Source: Candidatus Cryptobacteroides intestinigallinarum (lineage in GTDB: Bacteria; Bacteroidota; Bacteroidia; Bacteroidales; UBA932). Taken from it: a DNA stretch of 64,000 nucleotides. Position 1 is the stretch's first letter. Each line of letters starts with the position of its first letter. The DNA lies in NCBI GenBank assembly GCA_017694785.1, contig JADIMK010000068.1, positions 34,972 through 98,971 on the forward strand. Direction: 5' to 3'. This document shows positions 4,758 to 16,846 of this stretch, in pieces. Under the pieces are notes generated by a model that was given only the letters and a program-made list of their open reading frames with translations, was not told where the DNA came from and searched no databases. The position numbers were made by a program, and so were the translations under genes.

Positions 4758-5786
4758 TCAGAACAATGAAGGAGCGGAATCGTCACCGGAGATCCTGTCG
4801 AGTCCGAGATGGGTGTATGCAAGCTCCGTGGCTTCCCTGCCCCTCGGAGTCCTCACTATGAACCCCTCCTTTATAAGGAAAGGCTCATATACTTCTTCAA
4901 GCGTCCCCTGGTCCTCACCCACAGCGGTGGCGATAGTGTTCGCCCCCACAGGACCGCCCTTGAATTTGGTGATTATGGTGCGGAGTATCTTGTTGTCGAT
5001 TGCATCAAGCCCACGCTTGTCTATATTGAGAGCATCAAGGGCATACCTTGCTATGGCTATATCTATATGTCCGTTTCCCATGACCTGGGCGAAATCCCGG
5101 ACACGTCTCAGAAGCGAATTCGCGATACGAGGAGTTCCACGGCTCCTGAGCGCTATCTCATAGGCAGCATCATCTTCGATGCCGATCTTGAGTATAGAAG
5201 CACTTCTCTTGACTATATGAACAAGAGTAGAAGTATCATAATACTCAAGTGCGAACGTGATGCCGAACCTCGCACGCAGAGGAGCTGTAAGCAGACCGCT
5301 CCTTGTAGTCGCTCCAACAAGGGTGAACGGATTGAGGGAAATCCGCACCGACCTTGCTCCAGGTCCCTTGTCTATCATGATGTCAATGACAAAGTCCTCC
5401 ATGGCGGAATAAAGATATTCCTCGACTTCCGGAGAAAGACGGTGTATCTCGTCAATGAAAAGCACATCTCCTTCATCAAGAGATGTAAGCAGACCGGCAA
5501 GATCTCCCGGCTTGTCAAGTACCGGACCTGACGTTACCTTCATGTTGACCCCGAGCTCATTTGCTATTATATGTGCAAGAGTAGTCTTGCCGAGACCTGG
5601 AGGGCCGTGGAAAAGTACGTGATCGAGGGATTCCCCTCTCATCTTTGCGGCCTTTATGAATATCTTGAGATTGGCTACAGTCTTATCCTGGCCGGTGAAA
5701 TCTTCGAGTTCCTGAGGCCGTATGATTCCGTCAAAATCTTTATCTTTGTCTGAATTTACATCGTGAGGATCGAAATGTCCGTTCAT
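4758..5786 (-). CDS. ruvB: Holliday junction branch migration helicase RuvB
   Basis: [56 protein letters not shown]. Confidence 0.97.
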
Positions 5787-5814
5787 TTTCCAAGCCGATT
5801 AAATTTTTGCCGCG

Positions 5815-6137
5815 CGGCAACATCATCATTAAAATCATACAAATATAATCTTTTTATATTTCAATTGATGTTGTTTATATTTGTGTGAATATGTTGACAA
5901 GATTTGTATTTAATTGATTATTAAATATTTATAATTACATATAATTGTTAAGAACTGTTGTTGGAACTTCTTGTTAAATTGTTGAGGAAAAATTTTGAAT
6001 TTGATTTCTGTTTCTGCCTATAATGATTTATGTAAAAAGCACAATAAACTTTTTATCAGTTATCACCAGCTGTTTCAACACGTTTTCAACAGATTTTTGA
6101 TGATTTTCAACAGGGTTATCAACAAAGGGCATCTGAA
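5815..6137. promoter_or_regulatory. AT-rich divergent intergenic region with clustered DnaA-box-like 9-mers (candidate origin region)
   Basis: TTATCACCA 6060, GTTTCAACA 6072, TTTTCAACA 6083, TTTTCAACA 6104, TTATCAACA 6116, beside about 240 bp of AT-rich DNA. Confidence 0.4.
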
Positions 6138-9100
6138 ATGACCATAGGTAAGAAAACAACTGAGAGACTTTCTGAGAAACTCAAGGATTCTGATGAGATA
6201 TACTGTTCCGGACTCCTGCTTTCGGCAAGATGGTTCGTACTTTCGTCTGTCGCGGACAAAGGAATACATCTGGTGGTCCTTCCTGACAGGGAAAGTGCCG
6301 AATACTGTGCTTCTGATTTCTATAACCTGATAGACGGGGACAGGGTATTCTTCCTGCCGGATTCCGGGAAGAACCTGGAAAGGAGCAACTATAAGTCATC
6401 CCTGGGCGTGCAGAGAACATCTGCCATAGGAAAGATCGGCGAATATTCCGGTGACGGACCTCTTGTGATAGTCTCTTATCCGGCTGCAATTGAGGAGCCT
6501 GTCCCTGGCGCTGACAAGATAAAGGGATCGGTGCTGAGACTGCATACCGGCGATGAGGTAAGCCATGACAGTATCGCCCAGACGCTTTTTTCAGAAGGGT
6601 TTGAAAGAGTTGATTTTGTGGCGGCTCCAGGTCAGTTCGCTGTCAGAGGCGGCATCATAGACATATTTTCATTCTCATACAACTATCCGTACAGGATAGG
6701 ATTCTTCGGAGATGAGATTGAGAGCATAAACATCTTTGACTGCAATACGCAGCTTTCTGTAGAAAAGACAGATGAGGCCACGATCTATCCTGACCTGGCG
6801 TGCGGAGAAGGTGATGAGATGACATATATATATGACAAGCTCCCTTCTGGTACTACAGTATGGATGGATTCGTCCGACATGTACCGGGAGAGGCCGTTCT
6901 ATTCCCCTCTGCTGTCGTACAGGCATGTCTTCCTTGATACTCCCCTGTCTGCACAGCAGAGGGACGATGTACTCAGGTTCAGCATTGCTCCGCAGCCTGT
7001 GTTCAACAAGAATTTCGAACTTCTTACAGCTGACATAAGGCAGAAGATAGAGACCGGCTACAAGGTATATATATATGGAGAGAAAGAGTCTCAGCTTGAC
7101 AGGCTCAGATCCATACTGAGCCAGAACGGAGGCATACTTCCGGAATTCTGTCCCGGAAAGAACATACACAGCGGTTTCATTGACAATGAGGACAGGATAT
7201 GCTGCTACTCAGACCATGAGATCTTCGACAGGTTCCACCGCGTCAGCATCAGAAGAACGGTGGAAAAGAGCGAACAGCTTACCATAAATGACCTTACATC
7301 TTTCAACATAGGCGACTATGTGGTCCATATTGACTATGGTATAGGTATCTTCGGTGGACTTGTAAAGATGAAGGATGACAAGGGCCGTATCCATGAGGTG
7401 GTCAAGATCTCATACAAGGACAATGATACTGTCTTCGTGTCTGTCCATGCCCTCCAGAAGATATCACGCTACAAGTCCAAGGATGCGGAGCCTCCGAAGA
7501 TAAACAAGCTCGGCTCGAAGACATGGCAGAACCTCAAGAACAGCACGAAGTCAAAGGTCAAGGACATAGCAAAGGAGCTTATACAGCTCTACGCAAAGAG
7601 AAAAGCTGCGAAAGGCTTCGCATTTTCACCGGATTCATATCTGCAGCAGGAGCTGGAATCTTCATTCATGTATGAGGATACTCCTGACCAGGAGAAGGCT
7701 GTCAAGGCTGTCAAGAGAGACATGGAGGATGATTGCCCTATGGACAGGCTGGTGTGCGGAGATGTAGGCTTCGGAAAGACGGAGGTGGCCATAAGGGCTG
7801 CTTTCAAAGCCGTTGCGGACAGCAAGCAGGTCGCTGTCCTTGTACCTACCACGATCCTTGCCCTCCAGCATTACAATACGTTCTGCGGCCGTCTCAAGGA
7901 TTTCCCTTGCAGCATAGACTATGTCAGCAGGCTGCGTACTGCAAAGGAGATACAGGATATCCAGGAACGGCTGAAGAAAGGTACTCTTGACATAGTCATA
8001 GGCACGCACAAGCTTCTGGGAAAGGGATTTGAGTTCAAGGACCTGGGTCTGCTTGTCATAGATGAAGAGCAGAAGTTCGGTGTGAGCGCAAAGGAAAAGC
8101 TCAAGCAGATGAAGCTTTCTGTAGATACCCTTACACTTACAGCTACACCTATCCCGAGGACACTGCAGTTCTCTCTTCTGGGGGCAAGGGACCTTTCAAT
8201 AATCAACACTCCCCCGCCAAACAGGATACCTGTACAGACTGAGATAATGCTCTTTGACGATGACGAGATAAAAAGCATCATAAACTATGAGCTGAACCGA
8301 GGCGGACAGATATTCTTCGTCCACAACAGGGTCGAGGAACTCCAGTCCATAGAAGATATACTGCACAGGATGGTACCTGACATGAAGATATGTACAGCGC
8401 ATGGACAGATGGAACCTAAGGTCTTGGAGAACAAGATACTGGACTTCATGGCCGGGGACTATGACATGCTCCTGTGCACAACAATCATAGAAAATGGTCT
8501 GGACATACCTAATGCCAACACCATCATCATCAACCAGGCTCAGAACATCGGCCTGAGCGACCTTCACCAGCTCCGCGGGAGGGTCGGACGCTCAAACAAG
8601 AAGGCTTTCTGCTATCTCATAGTGCCTCCTATGACGTCCATGACAGAAGATGCAAGGAGAAGACTCAAGGCAATAGAGGCTTTCTCTGATCTTGGAAGCG
8701 GGTTCAATATCGCCATGCAGGACCTTGATATCAGAGGGGCCGGAAATCTGCTCGGTGCTGAGCAGAGCGGCTTCATATCCGACATGGGTCTTGAGACATA
8801 TCAGAAGATATTGTCTGAAGCTATGGAGGAACTAGGTGTCGAGACCGGCATAGCTGCTTCCAAGTCCGAGGATTCAGGAGTCACCGACTGTACGATAGAT
8901 ACCGATCTCGAGGCAATCATTCCTGACAGCTATATCAATGTCACCGCAGAGAAGATCAGGATATACAAGGAACTTGATTCTCTTTCTGATGAGCGTGAGA
9001 TAGAGAGGATGAAGCATAAGATGTCAGACCGTTTCGGCAAGATGCCTCCTGAGACAGAACGGCTTTTCGAAATAGTCAGGATAAGGAATCTCGGGCAGAG

Positions 9101-9329
9101 GCTCGGCTTTGAGAAGATAATAATAAAGAACGGCATTGTGATAGCCTTCTTTATTTCAAATCCAATGTCAAAGTATTACAGGTCAAGGAAGTTCGCCGGT
9201 ATATTGGACAAGATACAGGAGAATCCTTCCCTGTATGAGCTCAAGCAGCCTGACGGAAGGTTGAGGATAATAATGAAGAATGTACCTTCTGTAGAGAAAG
9301 CATATTCACTTTTGGCGCGACTCTCGTAG
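6138..9329 (+). CDS. mfd: Transcription-repair coupling factor Mfd
   Basis: 1063 aa; DRLVCGDVGFGKTEVAIRAAFKA, DEEQKFGV, TLTATPIPRTLQFSLLGARDLSII. Confidence 0.97.
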   Translation: MTIGKKTTERLSEKLKDSDEIYCSGLLLSARWFVLSSVADKGIHLVVLPDRESAEYCASDFYNLIDGDRVFFLPDSGKNLERSNYKSSLGVQRTSAIGKIGEYSGDGPLVIVSYPAAIEEPVPGADKIKGSVLRLHTGDEVSHDSIAQTLFSEGFERVDFVAAPGQFAVRGGIIDIFSFSYNYPYRIGFFGDEIESINIFDCNTQLSVEKTDEATIYPDLACGEGDEMTYIYDKLPSGTTVWMDSSDMYRERPFYSPLLSYRHVFLDTPLSAQQRDDVLRFSIAPQPVFNKNFELLTADIRQKIETGYKVYIYGEKESQLDRLRSILSQNGGILPEFCPGKNIHSGFIDNEDRICCYSDHEIFDRFHRVSIRRTVEKSEQLTINDLTSFNIGDYVVHIDYGIGIFGGLVKMKDDKGRIHEVVKISYKDNDTVFVSVHALQKISRYKSKDAEPPKINKLGSKTWQNLKNSTKSKVKDIAKELIQLYAKRKAAKGFAFSPDSYLQQELESSFMYEDTPDQEKAVKAVKRDMEDDCPMDRLVCGDVGFGKTEVAIRAAFKAVADSKQVAVLVPTTILALQHYNTFCGRLKDFPCSIDYVSRLRTAKEIQDIQERLKKGTLDIVIGTHKLLGKGFEFKDLGLLVIDEEQKFGVSAKEKLKQMKLSVDTLTLTATPIPRTLQFSLLGARDLSIINTPPPNRIPVQTEIMLFDDDEIKSIINYELNRGGQIFFVHNRVEELQSIEDILHRMVPDMKICTAHGQMEPKVLENKILDFMAGDYDMLLCTTIIENGLDIPNANTIIINQAQNIGLSDLHQLRGRVGRSNKKAFCYLIVPPMTSMTEDARRRLKAIEAFSDLGSGFNIAMQDLDIRGAGNLLGAEQSGFISDMGLETYQKILSEAMEELGVETGIAASKSEDSGVTDCTIDTDLEAIIPDSYINVTAEKIRIYKELDSLSDEREIERMKHKMSDRFGKMPPETERLFEIVRIRNLGQRLGFEKIIIKNGIVIAFFISNPMSKYYRSRKFAGILDKIQENPSLYELKQPDGRLRIIMKNVPSVEKAYSLLARLS

Positions 9330-15742: not shown

Positions 15743-16846
15743 TCAGACATTGAAGAGGAAGTGCATGATGTCACCGTCCTGGACAACATAGTCCTTTCCC
15801 TCGATATAAAGCTTTCCTGCGGCCCTGCAGGCAGCTTCAGACTTCATCTCGACAAAGTCATCATACTTTATGACTTCTGCCCGTATAAAGCCTTTTTCGA
15901 AGTCTGTGTGGATTACTCCGGCAGCTTTCGGAGCCTTGTCTCCTTTGTTGATGGTCCATGCACGGCATTCATCTGCACCGGCTGTGAAGAACGTCTGCAG
16001 ATTGAGGAGGGAATAGGCTTTCTGTATGAGCCTTACGACACCTGACTCTTCCAGCCCCATCTCCTCAAGGAACATCTGGCGCTCTTCATAAGTCTCAAGC
16101 TCGGCAATGTCAGACTCGATCTTCGCTGCTATGACAAGTATCTCGGCATTCTCATCCTTTACTGCCTCACGTACTCTATCTACATAGGTATTTCCATGGG
16201 CTGCAGACGCTTCGTCAACATTGCAGACATACATCACCGGCTTGTTGGTGATGAGGAACAGATCCTTTGCAAGAAGCTGTTCTTCAGGTGTCTCCAGCTG
16301 GACTGTGCGGCATGATTTTCCTTCAAGCAAAGCTTCCTTGTAGCGGAGAAGGAGTTCGCAAAGTTTCTTCGCGTTCTTGTCTCCTCCGGCCTGAGCCTGT
16401 TTCTGTACTTTTGCAAGCCTGTTTTCAACAGTCTCAAGGTCCTTCAGCTGTAGTTCCATATCTATGACTTCCTTGTCTCTGACAGGATCTACGCTTCCGT
16501 CCACATGCACAATATTAGGATCATCGAAGCATCTCAGCACGTGGAGTATGGCATCTGTTTCACGTATGTTTGCAAGAAACTGGTTGCCGAGTCCTTCTCC
16601 TTTGCTGGCACCTTTGACGAGACCTGCGATATCTACTATCTCAACTGTAGCCGGTACGACTCTCTTCGGATTGCAGAGCTTCTCCAGTACTTCAAGACGT
16701 TTGTCCGGTACGATCGTGGATCCGATGTTAGGTTCTATTGTACAGAAAGGGAAATTGGCGCTCTGTGCCTTCCCTGAGCTGATGCAGTTGAAAAGAGTGG
16801 ATTTTCCCACATTGGGCAGTCCCACTATTCCACATTTCAGTGACAT
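15743..16846 (-). CDS. ychF: Redox-regulated ATPase YchF (Obg family)
   Basis: MSLKCGIVGLPNVGKSTLFNCIS, NFPFCTIEPNIG, FFTAGADECRAWTINKGDKAPKAAGVIHTDFEKGFIRAEV. Confidence 0.97.
   Translation of the reverse strand: MSLKCGIVGLPNVGKSTLFNCISSGKAQSANFPFCTIEPNIGSTIVPDKRLEVLEKLCNPKRVVPATVEIVDIAGLVKGASKGEGLGNQFLANIRETDAILHVLRCFDDPNIVHVDGSVDPVRDKEVIDMELQLKDLETVENRLAKVQKQAQAGGDKNAKKLCELLLRYKEALLEGKSCRTVQLETPEEQLLAKDLFLITNKPVMYVCNVDEASAAHGNTYVDRVREAVKDENAEILVIAAKIESDIAELETYEERQMFLEEMGLEESGVVRLIQKAYSLLNLQTFFTAGADECRAWTINKGDKAPKAAGVIHTDFEKGFIRAEVIKYDDFVEMKSEAACRAAGKLYIEGKDYVVQDGDIMHFLFNV

Follow-up and report, generated by a model that had tools for sequence, protein, structure and literature searches.

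Bacterial chromosomal origins, in the definition used for E. coli and by Ori-Finder, combine a cluster of DnaA boxes with an A+T-rich unwinding element and lie at a skew minimum. Adjacency to dnaA is common for oriC, is not required and is usually absent in Bacteroidetes. The oriC predicted on chromosome 1 of Prevotella intermedia OMA14, also in Bacteroidales, has multiple DnaA boxes where the GC skew shows a transition and is distant from dnaA, and the paper that describes it notes that oriC commonly lies far from dnaA in Bacteroidetes (PMC4755523). The present analysis concerns the intergenic region between ruvB and mfd in a window (the whole stretch of DNA analysed, 64 kb, C60:34972-98971) of a 2.24-Mb draft genome of 102 contigs, whose closest named relatives, judged by mfd, are MAGs of Candidatus Cryptobacteroides (Bacteroidales). 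In common with bacterial oriC in general, this region holds clustered 9-mers one base off TTATCCACA, unstable A+T-rich DNA alongside, a skew minimum and a single copy in the draft. It differs in its main box, TTWTCAACA, with A at position 6, and in that the predicted origin is flanked by ruvB and mfd and does not lie beside dnaA. With the predicted origin of P. intermedia it shares the boxes, the skew and the distance from dnaA, but the adjacency of ruvB and mfd has no counterpart in 28 other Bacteroidales genomes from other families, in every one of which ruvB is not near mfd (0/28). The element is thus of a known type, and what is particular to it is its family-specific location and layout; no paper was found that names the ruvB-mfd gap as an origin.

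Features of the ruvB-mfd region

The features discussed below are as follows, in window coordinates.

4758..5786, minus strand: ruvB, left flank (Pfam PF05496, PF17864, PF05491)
5787..6137: predicted oriC, the entire ruvB-mfd intergenic region, 351 bp, 73% A+T (own-contig skew minimum at 5861; box arrays kept in 73 family loci)
5830..6059: A+T-rich stretch (79.6%), candidate unwinding region
5837..5847, minus strand: conserved ATACAAATATA, read on the minus strand as TATATTTGTAT, probable ruvB promoter (alignment and 9-mer counts)
5892..5900, minus strand: reversed DnaA-box-like site and left-array member, TGTTGACAA on the plus strand and TTGTCAACA on the minus strand (aligned with TGTTGATAA of relatives)
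5901..5950: least stable 50-mer anywhere in the window (64 kb), likely the core of the unwinding element (nearest-neighbour duplex energy scan)
5946..5954, minus strand: degenerate reversed box, TGTTAAGAA on the plus strand (aligned with the conserved TGTTGAAAA/TGTTGATAA of relatives)
6060..6068, plus strand: Box 1, TTATCACCA, one mismatch (sequence check)
6072..6080, plus strand: Box 2, GTTTCAACA, one mismatch (sequence check)
6083..6091, plus strand: Box 3, TTTTCAACA (sequence check; genome-wide TTWTCMACA search)
6104..6112, plus strand: Box 4, TTTTCAACA (sequence check; genome-wide TTWTCMACA search)
6116..6124, plus strand: Box 5, TTATCAACA (sequence check; genome-wide TTWTCMACA search)
6138..9329, plus strand: mfd, right flank (Pfam PF17757, PF02559, PF03461)

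The gene calls of the initial annotation (ruvB, mfd and a PpiD/SurA-like gene) proved correct, by Pfam for ruvB and mfd, which start at 5786 on the minus strand and at 6138 on the plus strand and so form a divergent pair with 351 bp between them. The same annotation had listed five DnaA-box-like 9-mers at 6060-6124, and their positions, strand and spacings (12, 11, 21 and 12 nt) are all exact, as is its observation that three of them deviate from TTWTNCACA at a single position, which proves to be position 6 (A for C); the reversed box at 5892-5900 (TGTTGACAA) had been overlooked. The forward array ends about 14 bp ahead of the mfd ATG. The DNA beside the boxes, which had been described as very A+T-rich, has the highest A+T content among 230-bp stretches scanned across the 64-kb window in 10-bp steps (79.6% at 5830-6059).

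The draft genome (2.24 Mb) contains 105 TTWTCMACA sites, or about one in every 21 kb, a density at which some 1.3e-4 clusters of three sites inside 42 bp are expected; the ruvB-mfd gap has one. No other pair of these sites lies closer than about 680 bp among the matches listed (about 100 of the 105). The tandem pattern TCAACA-N2-3-TTWTCAACA has two matches in the genome, both in the gap, and its reversed control has none; across the tandem-pattern search of the draft and the TTWTCMACA matches listed, no second tandem box array was found.

Outside the boxes, ATACAAATATA is present in nearly every row of the family alignment and is among the most conserved motifs of the gap, with two of its 9-mers found in 55-65 of 73 loci. 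Read on the minus strand as TATATTTGTAT (5837-5847), it matches TAnnTTTG, the -7 promoter element of Bacteroidetes, and it probably drives ruvB.

Conservation across the family

Eighty mfd loci were gathered together with loci from seven further genomes, and four of these seven loci, which ran in the reverse direction, were re-oriented first; the comparison of gaps comprised 73 family ruvB-mfd gaps, counting that of the window. Wherever the contig of a family member extends far enough, ruvB and mfd are divergent neighbours. Alignment of the gaps, a check that the initial annotation had itself proposed, confirmed that the box repeats are conserved across the family: the 73 gaps contain 197 exact TTWTCMACA sites, as against 4.0 +/- 2.2 in dinucleotide shuffles (an excess of about 50-fold), and none of them has fewer than three sites when up to one mismatch is allowed. 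The sites form two arrays, with reversed boxes on the ruvB side, clustering about 120-260 bp ahead of the mfd start, and forward boxes on the mfd side, clustering 20-60 bp ahead of it. Of 132 intervals between adjacent forward boxes, 103 measure 11 or 12 bp, and most of the remainder 21-24 bp, or about two turns. The column of reversed TGTTGATAA in relatives corresponds to TGTTGACAA at window position 5892, and a second, degenerate column falls at 5946. In 59 genomes of the same genus the tandem pattern has 90 matches, of which 49, from 37 genomes, fall in the 400 bp upstream of mfd, against an expectation of 0.015; in the sister genus for which complete genomes are available, boxes in the gap are sparser.

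Beyond the family the arrangement is not seen. No box array was found upstream of ruvB in the 28 other-family Bacteroidales genomes, nor upstream of mfd at the distant Bacteroidales mfd loci (L070, L072-L076, L078-L081), and the array therefore tracks the ruvB-mfd locus and neither gene by itself.

Several further observations were made in the course of this comparison. Relatives L010-L047 carry, about 95 bp before mfd and between the two arrays, a short conserved motif that resembles a palindrome (CCGTTATATACGG / CCGTAATATACGG); it is degenerate in the window (around 6015-6030). In genus g14, which belongs to the same family, overlapping tandem matches place three boxes in a row at G080:C48:8037-8066 and G085:C4:84587-84616, on contigs where mfd is absent among the matches listed; these may represent an origin that has relocated or a second locus bound by DnaA. 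G017, a genome of genus g18, has six tandem-box matches on six contigs, far more than other genomes. The contigs of many relatives break just past ruvB, and an rRNA operon beside the origin was considered as the cause and rejected, as Rfam found none; by eye, many of these contig ends resemble frdA-like coding sequence.

Strand composition

Over the full 98,971-bp contig, cumulative GC skew reaches its minimum at C60:40832, which is window position 5861, inside the gap. A divergent gene pair can by itself bend the skew, and the comparison across the gap was therefore made between genes of like orientation; top-strand third-position GC skew in the contig differs by +0.13 for plus-strand genes (0.130; p=0.002) and by +0.15 for minus-strand genes (0.149; p=0.0004). 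Two complete genomes from a sister genus in the family place the minimum likewise. In G009 (2,657,245 bp, 30% sampled for skew) the circular minimum, at 16,395, precedes the mfd match (16,715) by 320 bp; the curve descends to it from a maximum near 1.34 Mb, on nearly the opposite side of the circle, passes the end of the record on the way, and rises after 16,395. In G053 (2,379,874 bp, half sampled for skew) it lies at 1,494,134, 321 bp upstream of the mfd match, which is on the minus strand and ends at 1,493,813. Tests on genes of like orientation reach significance in each of the two (p=0.0002), and in each the best arm contrast is within about 80 kb of the gap. The skew minimum, which the initial annotation had proposed as a check, was thus found at the gap both for the contig of the window and for the two complete genomes.

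Among other relatives the signal is less regular. A minimum within +-10 kb falls inside the gap in 16 of the 36 with usable loci, and the same-orientation effect pooled over relatives has p=0.0035 for minus-strand genes and p=0.43 for plus-strand genes. In two contigs of the same genus, the minimum lies 23 kb from mfd in a broad, shallow basin (G106 C1), or no clear minimum is present at mfd (G157 C3). Skew in these genomes is shallow and has probably been scrambled by rearrangements. The outward-pointing genes on either side of the gap, which had been offered as an argument for an origin, make a weak one: gene orientation carries little weight because the leading strand holds just 50% of genes in G053 and 53% in G009.

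dnaA and the DnaA protein

The predicted oriC is not adjacent to dnaA, whose single copy is on a different contig (C87); in the complete genomes, dnaA and mfd are 1.04 Mb (G009) and 0.78 Mb (G053) apart round the circle. A dnaA-linked origin was considered and rejected, as no TTWTCMACA occurs in a 3.5-kb stretch around dnaA and none is on the dnaA contig among the matches listed (about 100 of 105). Domain IV of the organism's own DnaA matches the structure of E. coli DnaA in complex with a DnaA box (1j1v; E=2e-17) and keeps the GG(K/R)DH motif, with alanine replacing the E. coli threonine after DH (GGKDHATV in L001, as against GGRDHTTV). This change beside the DNA-reading DH might be related to the fact that A is preferred at position 6 of the box.

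Discussion

The present data support the reading of the initial annotation, through the repeats kept family-wide and the skew minimum found at the gap for the window's contig as well as for two complete sister-genus genomes, and allow the ruvB-mfd gap to be proposed, with a probability of roughly 0.9, as the site where chromosome replication starts in this Cryptobacteroides-type bacterium and in its family. The assignment is well supported, as a strong prediction and not a demonstration. This model proposes that DnaA would bind the forward array beside mfd, at sites one helical turn apart, as well as the reversed boxes on the ruvB side, and would then polymerise and melt the adjoining A+T-rich DNA (about 5830-6059, most likely around 5901-5950). 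The melted DNA would admit the replicative helicase, and forks would depart both ways, so that initiation at the gap is predicted to be bidirectional.

An alternate scenario would make the array an operator through which DnaA or another protein regulates ruvB and mfd, with no role in the start of replication. Its position between divergent genes, ending about 14 bp before the mfd ATG, would suit such a function, as would the fact that both are repair genes; however, an operator predicts neither that the genome-wide skew minimum should fall at the gap, as it does in two complete genomes, nor the strand switch among genes of the same orientation, and no array lies upstream of ruvB in the 28 other Bacteroidales genomes or of mfd in the distant Bacteroidales loci, all of which makes this scenario very improbable. 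Regulation could nevertheless coexist with origin function. Clusters of DnaA boxes also constitute datA- and DARS-like sites, and the array might by that token titrate or reactivate DnaA and time initiation from a distance. Such sites require neither a skew minimum nor a long unstable stretch, yet the gap has both, and with no other tandem box array found in the draft (by the tandem pattern, or among the TTWTCMACA matches listed) this possibility is fainter still.

Least credible, to the point of being negligible, is a chance cluster in an A+T-rich gap whose local skew switch is caused by the divergent gene pair alone. It is true that such 9-mers are more frequent in A+T-rich DNA and that divergent genes bend the skew locally; however, a chance origin of the boxes is refuted by their 50-fold excess over dinucleotide shuffles in 73 loci and by their phasing at one helical turn, and the same-orientation gene test argues against a skew switch of that kind.

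With the gap taken as the origin, a more speculative extension, which on balance is doubtful, is that the origin moved to this site in the ancestor of the family, where its boxes form two arms, a reversed one towards ruvB and a phased forward one just ahead of the mfd start, and that DnaA loading would thereby also control transcription of both flanking repair genes. The box variant and the two-armed layout are directly testable with recombinant DnaA. The prediction narrows the origin to one intergenic region, applicable across a large uncultured family of the gut and rumen, in a phylum where dnaA fails as an origin landmark, and can serve in the orientation of genomes, in peak-to-trough estimates of growth from metagenomes and in the design of vectors.
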